Assembly (NCBI RefSeq): GCF_000786695.1
Contig: NZ_CP009962.1
Location: 496,001-560,000 of the forward strand
Source: Collimonas arenae
GTDB lineage: Bacteria; Pseudomonadota; Gammaproteobacteria; Burkholderiales; Burkholderiaceae_D
Direction: 5' to 3'
DNA length: 64,000 nucleotides
Both the position numbers and the translations under genes were made by a program. Positions within the stretch are counted from its first letter, which is position 1, and each line of letters opens with the position of its first letter. Shown piece after piece: positions 4,681 through 52,483 of this stretch. Below the pieces are notes generated by a model. That model worked only from the letters and a program-made list of their open reading frames with translations. It was not told the DNA's origin and ran no database searches.

Positions 4681-4774
4681 TTAGCCTCTACCGGCTCCTA
4701 GCAATAGGTGCATCATTCGCCTCCCGCTTCCCTCCCTGAGCGGGGCCGTATCGCTTTTGGTGATAAGGCATTGT

Positions 4775-4810
4775 GCCCTGGAGATATTCCCCTTTCTCCA
4801 GGGCTTTTTT
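4775..4810 (+). terminator. Strong hairpin with T-tract on the + strand, no + gene before it
   Basis: GCCCTGGAGA and TCTCCAGGGC form a 10-bp stem followed by TTTTTT on the + strand. Both flanking genes (hemB, engB) lie on the - strand, and the minus reading has no U-tract. It therefore either ends an unannotated + strand transcript starting around 4650-4750 or is a 3' structure of the engB message. Confidence 0.6.
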
Positions 4811-4826
4811 ATGTTTAGTGTATTGA

Positions 4827-6525: not shown

Positions 6526-8685
6526 ATGAGTAAGAGTAATAACGAAATTGCAAGTAATGAAATCAACACTGCAGGGATACAGCTGAAGACTAGCCGCCGC
6601 TGGCTGGCGGATGCGGTTGAACTATTGTCATCGATGCGCTTTGCGATCAGCCTGCTGACCATCATTGCGATCGCCTCGGTGATCGGCACCGTGCTTAAGC
6701 AAAATGAACCGATGCCGAACTACGTCAACCAGTTCGGTCCGTTCTGGTTTGAAGTATTCGGCAAGCTGGGTTTGTACGCCGTGTATTCATCGTGGTGGTT
6801 CTTGATGATCATGACTTTCCTGGTGATCTCGACGTCGCTGTGTATCGCCCGCAATGCGCCGAAGATGCTGAAAGATATGCGCAGCTGGCGCGAAAATGTA
6901 CGTGAGCAATCACTGCGCAACTTCCATCACAAGGCTGAATGGACTTCAGTCACCGCACCGGACGCGTTGCCCCGGCAACTGGCGGCGCGCATTGCCGCCA
7001 AGGGCTACAAGACCAAGCTAGTGGCGAAAGACAACGCTACCCTGATCACCGCCAAGCAAGGCGCCGCCAATAAATGGGGATACATCTTTGCTCACAGCGC
7101 GATTGTGATTATCTGCATAGGCGGCTTGCTGGATTCCGACTTGCCGATACGTGCACAGCAATTGATCTACGGCAAGACGCCCTTCAACGGTAACGGCATC
7201 ATCGCCGAAATTCCCGAAGAGCACAGGCTGGGGCTGGGCAACCCGACTTTCCGTGGCAATACCCTGATTCCTGAAGGTTCCGCCAGCAGCACCGCCATCA
7301 TTCCGCAAAAAGACGGAGTGATGATCCAGGACCTGCCGTTCACCATCCAGCTGAAGAAATTTATTGTCGATTTCTACAGCACCGGCATGCCCAAGTTGTT
7401 CGCCAGCGAAGTAGTGATCAAGGATAACGCCGACGGCCATACTTTCCCGGCCACCATCAAGGTCAATCAGCCTCTGATTTACAAGGGTATCGCGGTATAC
7501 CAGTCCAGCTTCGAAGACGGCGGCAGCAAGCTCAAACTGACCGCCTATCCAATGGTTGGCGCCGCCGAGACCACGTTCCCGGTCAGCGGCGAGGTCAACG
7601 GAACGACACCATTAGCCAACAACGGTAATAACGACTATACGATTGAATGGTCTGGTTTCCGCCCTTTTAACGTGGAGAATATGGCGCAATCAGGTGACGA
7701 TTTGCGTGCCGTAACCAAGTCCAAAAGCCTGAACCAGCGGCTGAGCGAAGATTTGAGCAACCATCTTGGCAATGCGGCGAAAAGCGCGAACAAGAAGGAA
7801 CTGAAGAATGTCGGCCCGAGCGTGCAGTACAAGCTGCGCGACAAGAATGGCCAGGCGCGCGAATTCAGCAACTATATGCAATCGATCAAGGTCGACGACG
7901 CCTACGTATTCCTGGCCGGGGTGCGTGATACCCCGGATGAGCCTTTCCGTTATTTACGGATTCCGGCAGATGACGACGACAGCGTGCAAGAGTGGATGCG
8001 TTTGCGCGCCGCCCTGACGGACCCCGCGTTGCGCGTTGCAGCGGCGCATCGCTATGCGCAACGGGCGATTCCGGAAAGCCGCGAAGGCATCGCTCTGCTG
8101 CGGGTACAGCTGGAGCAGTCGGCATTGCGCGGCTTGTCCCTGTTTGCCGGCGACGGTAAAGAGGCCGGTTACATGGCAATTTCCAGGTTCCTGGAGCAAG
8201 TACCGGCGCAGGAGCAAGAAAAGGCCGCCGACATCTTCATGAAGATCCTGAACGGCAGTATGTGGGATCTGTGGCAGGTTGCACGTGAGAAAGATAGTTT
8301 AAAAGAATTACCCGCGGATGAAAAGCACGCGCGTTTCTTGCAGTTGAGTACCAATGCACTGTCGGATGCAAGCTTCTATAATGCGCCTGTGTATCTGCAA
8401 ATGACCGGTTTTGACGAAATCAAGGCGTCGGTATTCCAGGTCACCCGCTCGCCGGGAAAAAAGGTCGTGTACCTGGGGTGTTTGCTGCTGGTGCTAGGCG
8501 TGTTCTCGATGCTGTATGTGCGTGAGCGCAGGCTGTGGGTGTGGGTGCGTCCGGACAAGGACGCGCCAGGCCAGTCGCATGCGCTGATGGCGATGAGTTC
8601 GCAGCGCAAGACGCTGGATTTTGAAAAAGAATTTGACGTGTTGAAAACACAATTGATGCAGTCGGAAGCGCAGCCGAAGTCCTAG
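6526..8685 (+). CDS. resB: Cytochrome c biogenesis protein ResB (System II)
   Basis: Together with CcsB/CcsA it exports haem and attaches it to apocytochromes c at the periplasmic face of the inner membrane. The 719-aa protein has three N-terminal membrane helices (about residues 35-120 and 185-205), a large periplasmic domain, and a last helix near 640-660 (VVYLGCLLLVLGVFSMLYV). The start follows the cytochrome c4 terminator by 18 bp. The gene is followed after 69 bp by ccsB, the standard order. Confidence 0.93.
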   Translation: MSKSNNEIASNEINTAGIQLKTSRRWLADAVELLSSMRFAISLLTIIAIASVIGTVLKQNEPMPNYVNQFGPFWFEVFGKLGLYAVYSSWWFLMIMTFLVISTSLCIARNAPKMLKDMRSWRENVREQSLRNFHHKAEWTSVTAPDALPRQLAARIAAKGYKTKLVAKDNATLITAKQGAANKWGYIFAHSAIVIICIGGLLDSDLPIRAQQLIYGKTPFNGNGIIAEIPEEHRLGLGNPTFRGNTLIPEGSASSTAIIPQKDGVMIQDLPFTIQLKKFIVDFYSTGMPKLFASEVVIKDNADGHTFPATIKVNQPLIYKGIAVYQSSFEDGGSKLKLTAYPMVGAAETTFPVSGEVNGTTPLANNGNNDYTIEWSGFRPFNVENMAQSGDDLRAVTKSKSLNQRLSEDLSNHLGNAAKSANKKELKNVGPSVQYKLRDKNGQAREFSNYMQSIKVDDAYVFLAGVRDTPDEPFRYLRIPADDDDSVQEWMRLRAALTDPALRVAAAHRYAQRAIPESREGIALLRVQLEQSALRGLSLFAGDGKEAGYMAISRFLEQVPAQEQEKAADIFMKILNGSMWDLWQVAREKDSLKELPADEKHARFLQLSTNALSDASFYNAPVYLQMTGFDEIKASVFQVTRSPGKKVVYLGCLLLVLGVFSMLYVRERRLWVWVRPDKDAPGQSHALMAMSSQRKTLDFEKEFDVLKTQLMQSEAQPKS

Positions 8686-45008: not shown

Positions 45009-45968
45009 CTACAGCTTTCAGCGTAAGTTTAAGGCCGTGTTGGCTTGTTGGAAATGCAATTTTCACGCCTGAAAGGCTAAGTTATGCCGCTGGCCGGTGA
45101 CTAGGCCGGCACGGCAATGCCATATCAAACGGATCAACCTGACACTATATCAGGATAGGGATTTTTGAGTTTTATCCGGCTGCCTTGCACAGCCAATATT
45201 TGTGCGGAGATCTTTGATCATATAGCGGCTATTTTTTAACCCAACTTTCTTGCACGCTTTGTTCCAGTTTTCGCGCACATCTTTCGCGATATGGGATATG
45301 CCATGACCATCGTGAATTACATAATCGCAAGTGGGTTTTATCGTGACCGCGATTTTGAGAACTGCTTCAATTACTTTCGTAAGTAGCCAATTTACCCGAT
45401 CCGCTGAGGTCTTTAGCCTTTTTGAAGGTTGGAAGCGAATCAAGTTTGTCAATCGATCCTATTTGGCTCCACTTTAAATTTCTAATTTCTGTCGAGCGCA
45501 TACCTGTCCCGCTGCCGTAGTGAGACGGCTGCGCCTGTATCGTTTCAAGCCGCCTCGTGCTGTTTTTTTACCCCCCCTGTTCCTGGTCTTATCCATGGCG
45601 AACATGCATGTATCCGGCCTTTAAAACGCAGTCCCCCACGCCTGCCCAGGAGGTTAAATACACTGCTTTTAACGCAGTTCGCAAAAACGCCAAGTCCCCA
45701 AGATGCACTGGGTTCGGGGGAAAATTGGCTGCAACGGTTTGACGCAAAAAGGCGCATTTTGATCACGATTTATTTAACGAGCAGCCACAGTCAGGCATGC
45801 TGTTTGGTAAACAAATACGATGATGCGAATTAACAACACGCCAAAAAAATTCCATATTAACAATGTTTAACAATTAGACAATCTATTAAGATACATTTCG
45901 ATACACAAAGATTCATAAAGAAATAAAGCAATGTTATCTATGCATAATTTTGTCGGGATTGAGCATTT
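45009..45968. other. Degenerate region upstream of the microcin locus
   Basis: Nearly 1 kb without an intact gene. It contains the integrase remnant (45150-45540). From about 45750 there is a strongly A/T-rich 200-bp segment that looks like the promoter region of the following operon (for example TTAACA near 45870 with weak -10 candidates 17 bases on). No LexA-type operator was seen before uvrA. Confidence 0.5.
45150..45540 (-). pseudogene. Tyrosine recombinase (phage-type integrase) remnant
   Basis: Two pieces in different frames on the - strand together resemble the catalytic domain of a tyrosine integrase. The upstream piece reads HYGSGTGMRSTEIRNLKWSQ (box I with its Arg). The downstream piece reads RVNWLLTKVIEAVL, then IKDLRTN, like the box II HxLRxx region. 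The frames are broken by a shift and a stop near 45400, and the protein lacks its N-terminal half and the C-terminal active Tyr. It marks past insertion of a mobile element next to the microcin locus. Confidence 0.75.
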
Positions 45969-47294
45969 GTGAGCGAAATAAATAAGCCGTTATCATTGTT
46001 TCGCCCCCAGGTATTGACCGCCTACAGTAGTCAATGGGTTGGCTCTATTCGTCTGGCGCAACCACTCTCGGCTTGGGCGATAACCTTTATGGCTCTTGTG
46101 GTAGGCGCCACACTCGTTGCTTACGCTTCCTTTGGCAGCATCACAAAAAAAGCTAGGGTTGCTGGCATCACTGTCCCTACCTGTGGCAGTTTGACGATAA
46201 ATGCTCCGAATGTCGGCGTATTAATTCATACCCATGTCACAGAGGGACAAAGAGTTGTCGCTGGGCAGACCCTCTTTGAACTATCAACGGAACGTCAGGG
46301 AAATCAAGGTGAAATCACTGCGCTGATCTCACAACAATTGGCTGCTCGTCAACAATCGCTAGAAACTGAGCAGCGTTTGCGCGCTACACAATACCTGGAG
46401 AAAAAGCAGGCGATTATTCAACATCTCAATAATCTCGCCGCCGAGGCCGGACAACTGGAACAAGAAATTGCACTTGCTCAACGCCGGCATGATCTAGGGC
46501 AATCAAGCCTAAGCAAATATGAGGCCCTACAAGCAAGTGGTTATGTATCGCCGGCACAGACCCAGCAAAAACAAGAAGATCTGATCGATCTAGCAGCACG
46601 TGTGAGTAGTCTCAATAGAAATAAACTTCAATTGCAGGCGAACCGCCAAAGTCTCCAGGCTGACTTGGCTGTACTGGCCAACAATTTAGCGACTGACAAC
46701 GCTCAACTACAAGGTAATGAAGCGAGCTTGCAACAAGAAATGGCTGAGAACCATTCTCGCAAAGGAAGTCTGATCGTCGCAGCGCAAGCGGGCATAGTTA
46801 CCACAATTACCTATCAACCGGGGCAAGCTGTGAGCGCAGGACAGGTTCTTGCGACGATGATACCCGCAAGCGGGACTGACACCGCAACAGCATGTAATAG
46901 CCTCGAAGTCCATCTATATACCCCCAGCCGGAATGCAGGTTTCGTTATTCCAGGACAGCAGGTACTAATTCGCTTTAGCGCCTATCCCTATCAGAAATTT
47001 GGCCTGCAACAAGGTCGTGTCATTGATGTCAGTAAAACCCCTTTTGCGCCGAATGAGCTTCCACCTAACTTGGCCAGCACAATACTCAGCAATGCACAGC
47101 AAACCATTCAGGGATTCAACAGCAACGAAGCGCTATATCGGATCAAGGTCAGGCTGGACAAGCAGAGCATAGAAGCATATGGACAAGCGCAATATCTCAA
47201 GCCGGGTATGACCTTGGAAGCAGATGTGATGCAAGACAGAAGAAAGATTTGGGAGTGGATTGTTGAGCCGATTTTGGCGGTTACGCATCGCTGA
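45969..47294 (+). CDS. HlyD/CvaA-type periplasmic adaptor for microcin export
   Basis: Membrane-fusion subunit that would link the C39 ABC exporter at 49394 to an outer-membrane TolC channel. The 441-aa product has one N-terminal helix (about 35-55, AWAITFMALVVGATLVAYASF), a biotinyl-lipoyl-like half-domain (VTEGQRVVAGQTLFEL), a long coiled coil (about 115-265, Gln/Leu/Ala-rich) and a beta-barrel part. The C-terminus RRKIWEWIVEPI is as in colicin V secretion adaptors. The GTG start at 45969 follows GATTGAGC. Its last bases lie within the duplicated unit that carries the precursor genes. Confidence 0.87.
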   Translation: MSEINKPLSLFRPQVLTAYSSQWVGSIRLAQPLSAWAITFMALVVGATLVAYASFGSITKKARVAGITVPTCGSLTINAPNVGVLIHTHVTEGQRVVAGQTLFELSTERQGNQGEITALISQQLAARQQSLETEQRLRATQYLEKKQAIIQHLNNLAAEAGQLEQEIALAQRRHDLGQSSLSKYEALQASGYVSPAQTQQKQEDLIDLAARVSSLNRNKLQLQANRQSLQADLAVLANNLATDNAQLQGNEASLQQEMAENHSRKGSLIVAAQAGIVTTITYQPGQAVSAGQVLATMIPASGTDTATACNSLEVHLYTPSRNAGFVIPGQQVLIRFSAYPYQKFGLQQGRVIDVSKTPFAPNELPPNLASTILSNAQQTIQGFNSNEALYRIKVRLDKQSIEAYGQAQYLKPGMTLEADVMQDRRKIWEWIVEPILAVTHR

Positions 47295-48118
47295 ACGTGA
47301 TTGCAAAGTCCGAGGATCTGAACACATTAGTCGAGAGTTTTTGCATTGGCTGAAAGCAGGTGTGGTTGGGACAAAGACAGATCCCTTTATTCTGTCGTAG
47401 TTGGAGAAATAGATGCGCGAGTTAAATGCAATCGAAATTGAGGCAGTAACAGGAGCCGGTTTGACAGATGTCGTAAAAAAATTAGGGCCAGTGGTTAAAG
47501 AGATGGTCAAAGACGCTGCTGCGAGTGCAGCCGGACAGGCAATTGTTGAAGCGCTAACGCCAAAGTCACCACCGCCACCGCCTCCACCACCTCCTAAAAA
47601 TGGCGGTGGTGGAGGCGGTGGAGGCGGAGGCGGCGGTGGCGGTGGCGGCGGTGGCGGCGGTAGTGGCGCAGGTGCCGGTACGGGTACAGGTGCTGGCGGA
47701 AGTTTGAAAAGAGGCTCAGTCGCCATTAATCAGGATTAATTGGCAGATTGGTAGAAAAGGACTTGTTCCCCTTTCGATAAATAAAATACCTAGGGCTAAA
47801 ACCTCGGGGCAGCGCTGATGTGGCAGTTACACGTCGCTGAAAGTGATTACGAAGTCGGAGGCATGTGAACCCGTTAGCCTGGCGTTTATTGGATTGGCTG
47901 CAAACAGGTGTCGTTGGGGAAAGGACAGACCCCTTTATTCTGTCGTAGTTGGAGAAATAGATGCGCGAGTTAAATGCAATCGAAATTGAGGCAGTAACAG
48001 GAGCCGGTTTGACAGATGTCGGAAAAAAATTATGGCCAGTGATTAAGGAAATAGCCAAAGACGCTGCTTCGAGTGCAATCGGGCAGGGAATTGTTGATGC
48101 GCTAACGCCAAAGCCACC
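47277..48118. repeat. Tandem duplication, period 548 bp, carrying the precursor genes
   Basis: The stretch from about 47277 (inside the end of the adaptor gene) to about 47575 is repeated from about 47822 to 48118. Matching parts include GCTGAA.GTGATT, CCCTTTATTCTGTCGTAG and the first 60 bases of both precursor genes, which are identical. The two precursor ATGs are 548 bp apart. Confidence 0.85.
47413..47739 (+). CDS. Microcin/bacteriocin precursor 1 with poly-Pro/poly-Gly tail
   Basis: Small secreted peptide precursor of 108 aa. The leader MRELNAIEIEAVTGA ends in a Gly-Ala double-glycine-type site, and the C39 exporter would cut before Gly16. The predicted mature peptide starts with a cationic amphipathic stretch (GLTDVVKKLGPVVKEMVKD), then an Ala-rich helix. 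Nine consecutive Pro, Lys-Asn, 20 consecutive Gly (GGN codons), a Gly/Ala/Thr run and LKRGSVAINQD follow. It has no Cys. The ribosome site GGAGA is seven bases before ATG. Toxicity is inferred from leader, size and neighbours only. Confidence 0.8.
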   Translation: MRELNAIEIEAVTGAGLTDVVKKLGPVVKEMVKDAAASAAGQAIVEALTPKSPPPPPPPPPKNGGGGGGGGGGGGGGGGGGGGSGAGAGTGTGAGGSLKRGSVAINQD

Positions 48119-48278
48119 TCCGCCTGCGCCTCCAGCACCACCGCCAAACCCACCGCAAGAGCCCAAACATGATAAAGGCGGGGATACTGGTCGTCGGGAA
48201 ACATTCCGGGGCGACTATACTGGAAGCGGGCAAAGCGGGATGCCACGCAGTGGTAGTGTACGTATCATGACGGTGTAG
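47961..48278 (+). CDS. Microcin/bacteriocin precursor 2, paralogue of precursor 1
   Basis: The 105-aa precursor has the identical leader MRELNAIEIEAVTGA and a closely similar helix start (GLTDVGKKLWPVIKEIAKD). The tail differs: a Pro/Ala-rich stretch (PPPPAPPAPPPNPP), then a charged segment with KHDKGGDTGRRETF and the end PRSGSVRIMTV, which echoes RGSVAI of precursor 1. It has no poly-Gly and no Cys. The same upstream sequence and ribosome site precede it. Two unequal tails on a shared front suggest a two-peptide system or diverging duplicate toxins. Confidence 0.8.
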   Translation: MRELNAIEIEAVTGAGLTDVGKKLWPVIKEIAKDAASSAIGQGIVDALTPKPPPPAPPAPPPNPPQEPKHDKGGDTGRRETFRGDYTGSGQSGMPRSGSVRIMTV

Positions 48279-48411
48279 ATAATATAGGTTGGATATAAAT
48301 GCAGCTACATTAAATAATATATATGTAGCTGCATTCTTTTTTATTAAATTCATTTTTTGAATAAATATTTTTTCTTAAAAAATCATTTTGACTAATTTCC
48401 GATAAAAACAA

Positions 48412-49245
48412 ATGCAAAAAAAATTATCTAAATTTCCAGTTTTATGGATATTTATCGTCGGATTATTTGTTAATGTAATAGTGATAACATTAATAAAGGG
48501 TTATGTTGATGAAGAGAATTTAATTGTAATTCCAAATGTGATTTTTGCAATTTCTTCAATATTATTTGTATTTAAAGAAAAAATTTCATTAACAGCTATA
48601 TTTGGCAATATTCCCAGATTTTTTAAAGATTTTTTATACATTTTTCTTTATATTTTTCTGCTGATATTAATGATGCTGATTCTCGGGGCAGTATTTTATG
48701 TTATTTTTCGCTTTTCCCCAAATTCATTATATTTGCTGATTGACAATGCATCTTCTAAAGCAAATTTACTACAGAGGTCGGTTTTTCTTGATATTTTATT
48801 TCCGTGCTTATTCGCTCCAATTATTGAGGAATTTTTCTTTCGCGGGCTAATCTTGCAAAAATTCATGTTAAAAATGTCCGTCACTCGTGCCATTATTTTT
48901 TCATCAATAATATTTGCACTTGTACATTTTCACGCATTTATATTTATTCAATTTTTCTTTGCAATTTTTGTTTCAATTGTCTATATAAAAACACATTCAT
49001 TATTTTCCGCTATTATTATTCATATTATTAATAATAATATTACTGTGTTTATGTTTTATAACTCTGAATCCGGTGAAAAAATGTCCGCAAGTGAAATTAC
49101 AGATTTAGCTAACGTTATGACAGCGATTGGACCTTGGTTGCTTCTTTGTTCAATTCTTGGCTTGATAGGGTTGCTTTTTTTCCTGAAAAAAATATGGCCT
49201 ATTAAAGATTCCATTCTTCCTTACCAATACAATATTACTCAATGA
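48412..49245 (+). CDS. CPBP-family intramembrane metalloprotease, candidate immunity protein
   Basis: Multi-helix membrane protein of 277 aa with the CPBP (Abi, CaaX-protease-like) motifs: EE at 139-140 and Arg144 in IEEFFFRG, His172 in FALVHFH, and His204 with Asn207/208 in IIIHIINN. In lactic acid bacteria CPBP proteins in bacteriocin loci confer self-immunity or act in maturation; the same is inferred here. The gene is far richer in A/T than its neighbours (Lys AAA, Ile ATT/ATA, Phe TTT preferred), a sign of foreign origin. Confidence 0.85.
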   Translation: MQKKLSKFPVLWIFIVGLFVNVIVITLIKGYVDEENLIVIPNVIFAISSILFVFKEKISLTAIFGNIPRFFKDFLYIFLYIFLLILMMLILGAVFYVIFRFSPNSLYLLIDNASSKANLLQRSVFLDILFPCLFAPIIEEFFFRGLILQKFMLKMSVTRAIIFSSIIFALVHFHAFIFIQFFFAIFVSIVYIKTHSLFSAIIIHIINNNITVFMFYNSESGEKMSASEITDLANVMTAIGPWLLLCSILGLIGLLFFLKKIWPIKDSILPYQYNITQ

Positions 49246-49393
49246 GCATGGAAAATCACTCACAATGTTATTCAATTTCTATAAGGCGGTTTAAAAAAAT
49301 GGTATTTGGAAACTAAGCTCCAAGTGCCCAACACATCATAAATGTTCGTCATGAGAAAAGCGCAAAGAAGAGCGCATCTGTTAATGGGATAAT

Positions 49394-51505
49394 TTGTTGA
49401 AACCACAACTTCAAACTGAAGCGAGCGAATGCGGCCTAGCATGCTTGTCTATGGTCGCCAACTACTATGGTTATCGCGTTGATCTGGCAGATCTGCGTCG
49501 TCAATTCCTGATTAGTTTAAAAGGAGTGACGCTTGCGCAGTTAATGCGTCACGCTGCCGTGCTGGAGTTGAACACACGACCTTTACGCTTGGAGTTGGAT
49601 GAGCTGACCCAACTACAAACACCATGTATCTTGCATTGGAACCTGAATCATTTTGTGGTTCTCAAGAAAGTGAGCAAGAACTGGAGAGGCGAGTTGAGCG
49701 CGCTTGTGCTTGATCCAGCAGTGGGTGAACGACGAGTATCATTGGAAGAAATATCGCAGTATTTCACTGGCGTTGCTCTTGAGATTTCACCCAATCCGGC
49801 TTTTAAGAGCAAAGATGAACGCAAGCGAATAGCATTGCGTGATCTGACCGGCCCCATCATTGGCCTGCGTCGCGCTGTCACACAAGTGTTGATCCTGGCG
49901 TTGGTATTGGAAATTTTTGCAATTGCCTCACCGCTGTTTAATCAATTCGTCATTGACGATGTCATCGTCAGCGGCGATCGAGAACTGCTGACGGTGCTGG
50001 TACTGGGCTTTGCTTTGCTGATGATTGTCCAGACCGCCATCGGTTTGGCGCGCAGTTGGTTTCTGATGCGTTGGGGCATGGACATTAGTATGCAATGGTC
50101 GGTACGTGTATTCGCGCACCTGACGCGCTTGCCCGTGGCTTACTTTGAAAAACGTCATCTCGGCGATGTGGTATCTCGCTTCAGCAGTATTCATGCCATA
50201 CAAAGTACGCTGACCAGCATGTTTGTCGAAAGTGCCTTAGATGGATTAATGGCACTTTTGGCTTTCGGCATGATGTTGGCATACAGTCCAAAAATGACGC
50301 CGTTGGTTGTCATCGCAGTAGTTCTCTATGCGCTCTTGCGTTGGATCTTCTATCAGCCGTTTCGTGATGCGTCGCAGGAGATGTTGATTTTGTCGTCGAA
50401 GGAAAGCAGCAATTTCCTGGAGACGGTGCGCGCCATCACTCCTTTAAAGCTGTTCGGCAGAGAAGTTGAACGAATGGCGCGCTGGCAGAATTTGATGATG
50501 GATGTGCAAAATCGCGAGATCAAAACACAAAAACTGGCGATTTTATTCAAAATTAGCCATACAGCCATCTTTGGCGGACAAGGTTTAGCGCTGTTTTATG
50601 TCGGCGCCGGAGAAGTCATGCAAAACGCTTTGACAGTCGGCATGTTGATGGCTTTTTCAAGTTATGCCGGAACATTCTCCAGCCGTATCTTCAATCTCAT
50701 CGACTTGTTCATTGATCTGAGAATGTTGGGGATGCATTCCGAAAGACTTGCAGACATCGTGATGGAGAAAAGCGAGCCAGAGGTTGCTACAGAAACGGAC
50801 TTGAGCCGCATCAAGCCTTCGATCACATTGAGGAATCTCAAATTCCGTTATGCCGAGGGTGAACCTTGGGTACTGAACAATATCAATTTAAACATACCGT
50901 CTGGCCAAAACATCGCTTTGGTTGGTCCGAGCGGCTGCGGGAAAACGACTTTATGCAAGATCATTTTAGGATTGCTGGAGCCAACTGAAGGCGAAGTTTT
51001 GATCGACAATATTCCAATCACACAAATTGGTATTCGCGCTTATCGCCAATTAGTAGGAACCGTAATGCAAGAAGACGTTTTGTTGGCTGGGTCAATACAA
51101 GACAACATCAGTTTTTTTGACAGTCATATAAATTTCGAACAAATAGAACACTGTGCCAAGCAAGCCGCAATTCATGAAGAGATAGTGGCGATGCCAATGG
51201 GCTACCAGACTCTGGTTGGCGACATGGGCAGCAGTCTGTCTGGCGGCCAAAAGCAACGCGTTTTGCTGGCTCGAGCTTTGTATAAGAAGCCGAAAATATT
51301 GGCGTTGGATGAGGCCACTAGTCATTTGGACGTGAGTAATGAACAGAAAGTCAATGATGCTCTTAGTCAGTTAAATTTGACCCGAATAATGGTGGCTCAT
51401 CGGCCCGAGACTATCAACTCCGCTGGAAGAGTGGTTGCAATTGAGGGAGGACAGATCATTGAGCAACGTGCACAGTTGGAGAGTCACAAGATTGCCTTGA
51501 TGTAA
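49394..51505 (+). CDS. Peptidase-containing ABC exporter (C39, bacteriocin type)
   Basis: Exporter that removes double-glycine leaders and pumps the peptide across the inner membrane. The 703-aa protein has an N-terminal C39 peptidase with Cys13 (ASECGLACLSM), His86 (NHFVVL) and Asp107 (LDPA) as catalytic triad. A six-helix ABC membrane domain follows (about 165-440), then the ATPase with GPSGCGKTT, LSGGQKQRV and ILALDEATSHLD. The start is TTG 49394 or 49397 after GGGA. All residues needed for activity are present. No TolC gene lies in the locus. Confidence 0.93.
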   Translation: MLKPQLQTEASECGLACLSMVANYYGYRVDLADLRRQFLISLKGVTLAQLMRHAAVLELNTRPLRLELDELTQLQTPCILHWNLNHFVVLKKVSKNWRGELSALVLDPAVGERRVSLEEISQYFTGVALEISPNPAFKSKDERKRIALRDLTGPIIGLRRAVTQVLILALVLEIFAIASPLFNQFVIDDVIVSGDRELLTVLVLGFALLMIVQTAIGLARSWFLMRWGMDISMQWSVRVFAHLTRLPVAYFEKRHLGDVVSRFSSIHAIQSTLTSMFVESALDGLMALLAFGMMLAYSPKMTPLVVIAVVLYALLRWIFYQPFRDASQEMLILSSKESSNFLETVRAITPLKLFGREVERMARWQNLMMDVQNREIKTQKLAILFKISHTAIFGGQGLALFYVGAGEVMQNALTVGMLMAFSSYAGTFSSRIFNLIDLFIDLRMLGMHSERLADIVMEKSEPEVATETDLSRIKPSITLRNLKFRYAEGEPWVLNNINLNIPSGQNIALVGPSGCGKTTLCKIILGLLEPTEGEVLIDNIPITQIGIRAYRQLVGTVMQEDVLLAGSIQDNISFFDSHINFEQIEHCAKQAAIHEEIVAMPMGYQTLVGDMGSSLSGGQKQRVLLARALYKKPKILALDEATSHLDVSNEQKVNDALSQLNLTRIMVAHRPETINSAGRVVAIEGGQIIEQRAQLESHKIALM

Positions 51506-51681
51506 CATCAAGCGCCTCATTCCACGCCGTCAGCTATAGAATCGATTTTCGTTGAGTGAGATGTGTCAAGCTTGGGAGAAATTTGGGCGAAAGCGGAGAC
51601 CTTTTCAGCCCTCGCCAGACCGGCTAGATTTTATGATCTCTAGTGTTTACGCGGCCTGGCGTGATCTTGGCTGGTTTGTAA

Positions 51682-51713
51682 TGGTGGAGGCGGCGGGAAT
51701 CGAACCCGCGTCC
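51682..51713 (-). ncRNA. Fragment matching the 3' end of tmRNA (ssrA), probable attachment site
   Basis: On the - strand the 32 bases are GGACGCGGGTTCGATTCC then CGCCGCCTCCACCA. This is a tRNA-like T-arm (GCGGG/CCCGC around TTCGATT) plus half of an acceptor stem and CCA, as at the 3' end of betaproteobacterial tmRNA. Weak similarity (GACTAA) may extend to about 51750. The rest of ssrA, including the tag frame, is absent because the YXWGXW gene lies there. Genomic islands that insert in ssrA leave such 3' copies. Confidence 0.75.
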
Positions 51714-51769
51714 TTCCACAAACCCCATGCACCGCATAGGATTAGTCACCATTTGTACTGATTTAAGTC

Positions 51770-52210
51770 TCAGCAATTTCCTTTTTTTGCCTGTCCCGGA
51801 GGGCAATGATAGCGAGGTTGGTCATCATGCCGGTCATCACCGCGACGGTCATCGCCGTGACGATCGTCCCGACGATCTTCATATCGGCCATGGTCGTCGC
51901 CCCGATGCCATCCGCCACGACGCAATTCCCATCCATTGCTGCCTTGACGCCATTCAGGGCGGTCATACATATAACCGCTGCGTGCGCGTTCCCAATGTCC
52001 GCCTGCCCAGACATGGCGACGGCCGTCCCAGTTCCAGTATCCGGGCGCCCATACATAACCAACTCGCGGCGGCGGCACGAGCTCATATCGTGGTGGTGGA
52101 GGTGGCGTGCCGATGGTGATGTTGACGCCGATTTGCGCCATCGCAAGGGTTGGCATAAAAGCAGAAGCGCCGGCGACGACAAGAGCGGCTGCGCAGAAGA
52201 TACGTTTCAT
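51770..52210 (-). CDS. YXWGXW-repeat exported protein with Asp/Arg/His-rich tail
   Basis: The roughly 146-aa product starts at 52210 (MKRIFCAAALVV) with GAGAG upstream; a longer frame to 52249 lacks a site. A signal peptide ends at AMAQ (about residue 25). A Pro-rich segment leads to the aromatic repeats YVWAPGYWNWDG and HVWAGGHWER, typical of YXWGXW proteins of the periplasm or outer membrane. The tail alternates Asp, Arg and His (DDRHGDDRRGDDRHDD) and ends in two Cys, which could bind metal. Function unknown. Confidence 0.82.
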   Translation of the reverse strand: MKRIFCAAALVVAGASAFMPTLAMAQIGVNITIGTPPPPPRYELVPPPRVGYVWAPGYWNWDGRRHVWAGGHWERARSGYMYDRPEWRQGSNGWELRRGGWHRGDDHGRYEDRRDDRHGDDRRGDDRHDDQPRYHCPPGQAKKGNC

Positions 52211-52483
52211 ATTTTCTCTCATATGTTTTTGATGGCTGGGACTATACATTCGACGAATCCAGAGTTCTACAGCGATTGCAATTAATTACATTGCATCCGT
52301 GCAGCAGATACTTGGCAACGATTGACGTTGCCAATAATCGCCCATATACACATTGCGATCTGTTAAGGATCGTTAAATTCAATCACAAGATTCTCAGAAT
52401 GTGCTTCGACGGACTAACCTGAACCGGTCATCTGCGTCATTTTACGCCCTGAAGCGTAGGGAGCGGAGGCTTCATTTCAAATT
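52211..52483. other. Intergenic region with a 9-bp stem-loop
   Basis: No gene. TTGGCAACG (52312-52320) and CGTTGCCAA (52326-52334) form a perfect stem with a five-base loop, without a T-tract. It lies downstream of the histidine kinase stop and upstream of the YXWGXW gene, so it may end or process the kinase message. Confidence 0.5.

Follow-up and report, generated by a model that had tools for sequence, protein, structure and literature searches.

The window analysed here, a stretch of 64,000 nucleotides from Collimonas arenae (contig NZ_CP009962.1, positions 496,001 to 560,000), contains at positions 45969-51505 a locus coding for an HlyD-type adaptor, two small precursor peptides (P1 and P2), a CPBP intramembrane protease and a C39-peptidase ABC exporter (Table 1). 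On balance, we regard this locus as a member of a polymorphic bacteriocin-like system, in which each exchangeable cassette joins a secreted peptide, the putative toxin, to its cognate immunity factor, in many cases a protease. More tentatively, the locus and its relatives may represent polymorphic peptide weapons of the Oxalobacteraceae with interchangeable proteolytic immunity, drawing on peptidases of five or more unrelated folds (CPBP, TraB/GumN, M16, retropepsin-like and ClpP-like), in which the cassettes recombine via the exporter ends and the leader. An earlier note on this DNA had proposed the same five genes on one strand, with Cys13, His86 and Asp107 of the exporter intact, and both the positions and the residues counted in the translation agree with it. 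It had also called the locus a complete toxin-export-immunity system: a locus for the export of leader peptides, with a CPBP partner, is indeed present, and toxin and immunity are its likeliest roles judging from related loci, but 'complete' is too strong, as no outer-membrane factor is encoded within the locus.

The closest exporters were found in Undibacterium (76-78% identity), and HlyD proteins of at least 50% identity occurred at 51 or more places in 392 genomes of the family, the own genome included. Longer regions were taken for 45 of the 51 places, the window among them; those left out (G105, G262, two in G355 and two in G385) lie mostly at contig ends. The arrangement of adaptor and exporter recurs in Undibacterium, Massilia and relatives, where the exporter clade is common, and the previous impression of a kind unfamiliar in Betaproteobacteria therefore does not hold. 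In these relatives, the two genes are often 1.2-6 kb apart and the gap holds leader peptides and their partners; in others, adaptor and exporter are adjacent and the cargo lies downstream. The cargo slot consists of a leader peptide and, in many cases, a peptidase-like gene behind it, the fold of which varies from locus to locus. Against the profile of the NHLP bacteriocin exporter (TIGR03796), the window exporter scored 509.2 bits, below the curated cut-off of 853.3.

Swapping of cassettes between near-identical exporters is well supported. Exporters with 98.0% identity are accompanied by a CPBP-like gene (L017) and an M16 gene (L019), respectively, those with 98.7% identity by a TraB gene (L024) and ClpP-like genes (L035), both in Undibacterium umbellatum NL8W, and those with 98.3% identity by a ClpP-like (L159) and a hydrolase gene (L162). 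In six of eight comparisons between loci, the untranslated region (UTR) and the leader lie in a block of 104-230 bp that is 81-94% alike; apart from further leader-region matches, the rest of these slots is unmatched, core and partner having been replaced. The same block is repeated inside 6 of 31 slots with 74-97% identity. Scars of exchange were found as well: remnants of both the exporter start and the adaptor end between two cassettes in L018, a weak exporter remnant (E 0.034) and a clear adaptor remnant (2.6e-6) in L159, and an exporter-start remnant in L157 (E 5.6e-30). Similar core pairs from different loci had the same partner class in 13 of 29 cases, compared to a mean of 5.2 upon shuffling (13 was reached in 10 of 5000 shuffles), with short leader-proximal motifs crossing classes; the longest core matches are mostly concordant in partner class.

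Among 44 distinct leader open reading frames (ORFs) of the exporter clade, 29 have a gene of a peptidase class within 900 bp downstream (TraB nine, ClpP-like nine, CPBP seven, M16 three and retropepsin-like one), two have a hydrolase gene and 13 have none of these classes. Outside the clade, a ClpP-like gene was found with 4 of 52 leader ORFs and a transglutaminase-like gene with one. All these counts are approximate, since the leader pattern search misses precursors (for example in L021, L035, L156 and L158, which are not among the 44) and admits false ORFs, especially outside the clade. Neighbouring loci, moreover, are not independent. When slot genes of at least 130 aa were compared with genes outside, 26/60 (from 30 slots) and 5/163, respectively, matched the classes (Fisher 8e-13), an enrichment that is partly circular because the class profiles were made from slot genes; the five outside matches all came from genes of the CPBP or ClpP-like classes that flank these same loci. 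Restricted to the four Pfam-backed classes, the figures were 15/60 and 4/163 (1e-6). A less selected Pfam scan placed 12 of 29 partners above the cut-off, phospholipase cargo set aside, and a selected scan, for which proteins had been picked partly for their peptidase look, assigned a peptidase family to nine of ten. None of 20 flanking control genes had a peptidase family, these being hand-chosen from 71, of which several omitted ones (in L018, L022, L144 and L159) later matched CPBP or ClpP-like profiles. Within the ClpP-like group, the serine and a histidine are kept in 10 of 11 proteins, and a predicted model of one member, built on four sequences and with a mean pLDDT of 70.3, suggests a ClpP fold.

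Both precursors of the window start with the leader MRELNAIEIEAVTGA, as the earlier note had recognised, and this leader is identical even at the DNA level. Judged by the consensus of double-glycine-type leaders, its relevant positions as read from the sequence are L-12, E-8, I-7, V-4, G-2 and A-1; P1 and P2 thus share with class II microcins a leader of this type, and both the C39-peptidase ABC exporter and the HlyD adaptor are present. The motif GGAGA (ribosome-binding) precedes the ATG in both cases. The core of P1 consists of an amphipathic stretch, LTDVVKKLGPVVKEMVKD, followed by poly-Pro and poly-Gly, and that of P2 of an amphipathic stretch followed by a Pro-rich tail. With hydrophobic moments of 0.63-0.64 and a net charge of 0 at the core starts (P1: 0.63, over 33 residues), the first core residues could form an amphipathic helix. 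Repeated GxxxG in a hydrophobic segment was not seen in P1 or P2 by inspection, and poly-Gly occurs in P1 only. This poly-Gly is encoded at 47600-47665 by a run of GGN triplets, the copy number of which could change the length of the tract in frame.

The region 47275-47594 aligns with 47821-48142 with 87.3% identity over 260 bp, and P1 and P2 are a true duplication rather than a chance resemblance. The duplicated block begins inside the adaptor gene and includes its final 20 nt with the stop codon; P2 is therefore preceded by the remnant of a second HlyD 3' end. In Pfam, P1 gave a single match at chance level (E 0.88) and P2 none, and no microcin family in Pfam or NCBIfam matched either precursor. 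The homologue searches in larger collections covered P2, P1 being left out for its Pro/Gly content. Among 5.8 billion proteins, in a search in which candidates need shared short exact words, P2 found solely itself (one protein at E<=0.01 from 15 candidates). In 60 genomes, the own included, weak matches appeared in six other genomes (E 1.2e-4 to 0.0096), which are probably due to chance in view of these E values and since some are interrupted by stops and some lie inside long frames. The earlier note had asked for a search of precursors and gene order and named homology to a non-toxic secreted family as a refutation; P2 has no convincing homologue outside the locus in the protein collection or the 60 genomes.

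The window CPBP, likewise proposed before, scores 69.2 bits against PF02517 (gathering score 22.4) and keeps the conserved Glu and His motif residues E139, H172 and H204, which are invariant in 8/8 aligned CPBP-like proteins of such loci. A CPBP gene adjoins leader ORFs in seven loci, the window and six others of the exporter clade, and the window CPBP is likely the cognate partner of P1 and P2.

In the mechanism that we propose, the conserved adaptor and C39 exporter would flank or adjoin a slot that receives cassettes of a leader peptide and a partner gene; homologous recombination at the exporter ends and within the UTR and leader would bring these cassettes in. The exporter would clip the leader after Gly-Ala or Gly-Gly and release the core peptide directly to the outside. 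We infer that the core is a bacteriocin-like toxin, probably aimed at close relatives, and the partner an immunity factor, very often an inner-membrane or periplasmic peptidase that would destroy re-entering peptide. In the window, P1 and P2 would be the cargo, which the CPBP would cleave once it has inserted into the inner membrane. By a crude hydrophobicity test, 20 of 25 partners have a signal-like N-terminus, compared to 9 of 20 flanking genes. As type I export bypasses the periplasm, an enzyme with such an N-terminus should meet the peptide only on its return, which favours immunity by destruction over maturation.

Several observations weigh against this proposal. Apart from the 13 leader ORFs without a partner of these classes, some cassettes offer no partner but small membrane proteins (L075), and one of the two ClpP-like genes in L035 lacks both the serine and the histidine. 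The UTR/leader block was not found in two of the eight comparisons (L024/L035 and L156/L157), and the short motifs right behind the leader that are common to different partner classes weaken a strict pairing. From the literature, SilX is a CPBP protein beside a bacteriocin without being its immunity protein (PMC9298176), and the CaaX protease beside cdz in Caulobacter lies outside that system (PMC5380434). The absence of a close relative of the window CPBP, for which two other proteins were found at E<=1e-5, would also suit an unrelated passenger of the island described below. That possibility gains from the G+C content of the gene (27.7%, compared to 47-49% for the exporter genes and 57.7% for uvrA) and from CPBP genes near exporters that have no adjacent leader ORF by pattern search (L030, L141). 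We nevertheless consider it very improbable, given that CPBP genes follow a leader ORF in six other clade loci, that partner genes are generally AT-rich (in 19 of 21 loci, lower in G+C than the exporter) and that the active-site residues are intact.

The partner peptidases could also be maturation enzymes that trim or activate the peptide, the CPBP processing P1 and P2 before or after export. SagE, MroQ and probably SilX are peptide-processing CPBP proteins (PMC9298176), and a part in leader cleavage or maturation has been suggested for TraB and alpha/beta hydrolase genes by graspetide loci (PMC8939145). This reading is unlikely, as the leader-removing C39 domain is intact, the partner fold differs among exporters that are 98% identical, and the signal-like N-termini would place most partners in the compartment that type I export skips. 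Slightly less likely still are peptides serving as signals that the peptidases clear, in the manner in which TraB/PrgY is said to clear enterococcal pheromones. TraB/GumN proteins are among the commonest partners (9/44), and the terms 'TraB' and 'pheromone shutdown' occur in a review on these pheromones (PMC7117660); a sensor or regulator, by contrast, is absent from the window locus according to the ORF listing, and neither phospholipase A2 as cargo, nor unlike cassettes stacked in one locus, nor the very rapid turnover of the cores fits signalling. Finally, the peptides could act on the producer or its surface, in autolysis, adhesion or host contact, rather than on competitors. Leader-like peptides on an acquired island can indeed serve such other roles: for the bacteriocin-like Naps of Neisseria, encoded on a horizontally acquired island, antimicrobial activity was undetected and autolysis was promoted (PMC11798529). 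The poly-Pro/poly-Gly core of P1 differs from characterised microcins, too. However, a peptidase beside 29 of 44 clade peptides and the joint replacement of core and partner fit conflict better than housekeeping, and we judge self-directed action to be improbable.

With regard to known systems, the window locus resembles class II microcins such as microcin V and H47 in its Gly-Gly/Gly-Ala leader, HlyD, C39 ABC exporter, small unmodified-looking peptides and linked putative immunity gene. It differs in that its cores are unrelated, its partner is a peptidase and its slot is modular with scars of exchange; immunity to class II microcins is conferred mostly by small dedicated membrane proteins. 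With Cdz of Caulobacter it shares a type I exporter, leader peptides and horizontal acquisition, and for Cdz, too, exporters are more alike than toxins and CaaX proteases occur near such islands (PMC5380434). Unlike Cdz, P1 and P2 have no evident glycine zipper by inspection, and Cdz immunity is a three-transmembrane protein; some relatives of the window locus (L031, L075, L158) do have glycine-zipper-like cores. Gram-positive CPBP/Abi immunity likewise places a CPBP intramembrane protease beside leader peptides and an exporter, and links to immunity, processing or reception have been described for CPBP proteins in the vicinity of bacteriocins (PMC9298176); here, the exporter is of the Gram-negative kind and several peptidase types, CPBP among them, are interchangeable. 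Graspetide loci can have double-glycine precursors near TraB/Tiki, hydrolase or erythromycin-esterase-like genes (PMC8939145), but no ATP-grasp enzyme was found among the ORFs between or beside the window genes or among the scanned slot genes.

Polymorphic toxin systems (CDI, Rhs) combine a constant delivery part with variable toxin-immunity cassettes, spare immunity genes and recombination remnants. The window family has matching features, namely a constant delivery module and cassettes exchanged between exporters of up to 98.7% identity, with scars and repeated blocks. The difference is that here the exporter pair and a leader of 15 residues stay constant, a short peptide varies and a peptidase takes the place of the partner; in the accessible part of a survey of polymorphic toxins (PMC3482391), peptidases as immunity to leader peptides were not met. 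Searches of open-access literature, subscription papers and preprints being outside their scope, turned up no report of a slot in which leader peptides are combined with rotating peptidase partners and none of the window cluster with another role. Class II microcins, Cdz and CPBP immunity being already known, the rotating peptidase repertoire is the apparently new part, for which no account was found. If the proposal is true, a private protease that destroys the peptide would represent a general principle of immunity to Gram-negative peptide bacteriocins, and unrelated peptidases in one position would indicate that proteolysis is a common and evolvable route to immunity. Dozens of peptide-enzyme pairs would then allow testing how proteases gain specificity for a single peptide, the order HlyD - slot - C39 would be a genomic handle for discovering antibacterial peptides in Betaproteobacteria of soil and freshwater, and an odd five-gene cluster would become a testable case of two sister peptides and one intramembrane protease in a genus that is not pathogenic.

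Table 1 Features of the window locus and its island (window positions), and partner genes of related loci (L numbers).
Feature	Position or loci	Strand	Details
HlyD-type adaptor	45969..47294	+	441 aa, GTG start; Pfam HlyD_3 E 1.3e-13
P1 precursor	47413..47739	+	108 aa: 15-aa leader, 93-aa core
P2 precursor	47961..48278	+	105 aa: leader as in P1, 90-aa core
CPBP/Rce1-type intramembrane glutamic protease	48412..49245	+	277 aa; PF02517 E 3.8e-19
C39-peptidase ABC exporter	49394..51505	+	703 aa, TTG start; Pfam Peptidase_C39 E 2.2e-33, ABC_membrane, ABC_tran
First copy of duplicated block to leader end	47275..47457	+	last 20 nt of HlyD, UTR, P1 leader MRELNAIEIEAVTGA; alignment
Second copy of duplicated block	47821..48005	+	HlyD 3'-end scar, UTR, P2 leader; alignment, 87.3% over 260 bp
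Inserted segment with locus	45182..51771	.	~6.6 kb, between uvrA and gene 51770-52249 (-); congener comparison
Left island-end sequence	45500..45761	.	recurs in own and other Collimonas genomes; query ~1001-1277, many places, 71-83% identity
Right island-end sequence	51573..51713	.	recurs in other Collimonas genomes; query 7074-7214
Broken reading frames	45150..45605 (ORFs 45150-45452, 45367-45501, 45474-45605)	-	tyrosine-recombinase-like by eye, not confirmed
TraB/GumN partners	L018, L023, L024, L026, L028, L033, L161, L176		Pfam
Retropepsin-like partners	L021, L144, L149		Pfam
M16 partners	L019, L020, L022		Pfam
CPBP partners	L029, L030, L141, L157, L177, L181; L017		Pfam; L017 below cut-off
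S9	L157		Pfam; upstream of leader
ClpP-like group			C-x-S-x-C-A in common; without Pfam family, or below-cut-off Clp match (L139, L147)
Exceptions: transglutaminase-like	L038, L158
Exception: JmjC	L158
Exceptions: weak or unassigned hydrolases	L162, L174
Exception: 382-aa protein without assignment, and nucleotidyltransferase	L156
Exception: phospholipase A2 cargo	L168:8424-8780	-	leader fused to PF09056 domain, E 3.5e-14

In at least 4 of 14 congeners (G002, G007, G010 and G014), the 3' end of uvrA is followed within 124-180 bp on the same strand by the gene that lies beyond the locus in the window; in the query used for this search, the uvrA match ends at 681-682 and the match to the far gene starts at 7271-7273. 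Since the two genes nearly adjoin in those congeners, the segment of about 45182-51771 is an insertion. The last 32 bp of its right end (51682-51713) are a 32/32 copy of the 3' end of ssrA (tmRNA), the true ssrA being located at C1:4843846-4844208, 4.3 Mb away. The insertion, the ssrA 3'-end copy and the edge sequences recurring in Collimonas show that the locus was acquired, and ends of this kind probably mark a widespread family of ssrA-related islands in the genus. As a candidate integrase remnant at the left end, the frame 45150-45452, the only one tested, had no recombinase match in Pfam or NCBIfam.

A paralogue of the exporter is present in 8 of 14 congeners and is at most 53-54% identical to the window exporter. 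The same genome carries a second export locus (L155:7717-12788; G000:C1, ~4497716-4502787) with a leader peptide of Cys- and Pro-rich core, an HlyD, a C39 ABC exporter with 53% identity to that of the window and, by eye, an outer-membrane-factor-like gene; no partner gene lies beside the peptide. The exporter of this second locus is common to 8 of 14 congeners, and its region is 82-87% identical to Collimonas silvisoli.

Among the relatives, L168 provides an example of enzymatic cargo for a C39 exporter, its phospholipase A2 being followed by a 146-aa protein without Pfam match. In Undibacterium pigrum (L209:7434-10061), genes of the CPBP and ClpP-like classes lie just upstream of HlyD, and one of the ClpP-like genes is split in two; no leader ORF was detected beside these genes by pattern search, and they look like spare immunity genes. 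The peptides of L019, L020, L021, L022, L024, L027, L144 and L159 share, a short way behind the leader, a motif some 20 residues long (like QTVEIxxxRMTxEEKxxYD), which by eye resembles a TonB box. The corresponding pattern, devised after the peptides had been viewed and thus a lead only, occurs in 9 of 44 clade peptides, compared to a mean of 1.7 upon shuffling (at most 7 in 1000 shuffles), and in 1 of 52 other leader-like ORFs; P1 and P2 are without it by eye. A second core motif (like DAxxTRxxGxNSWG) is found in the peptides of L022, L023, L035, L037 and L161, the classified partners being ClpP-like or TraB. At the start of the window exporter, the gene opens with TTG TTG (49394-49399), and the Undibacterium relatives have ATG as the second codon; together with the GTG start of the adaptor, this may indicate weak translation. 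Elsewhere in the window, an anti-hemB small RNA was detected at 4720-4812 on the forward strand (RF02837, 53.3 bits, cut-off 49.5).

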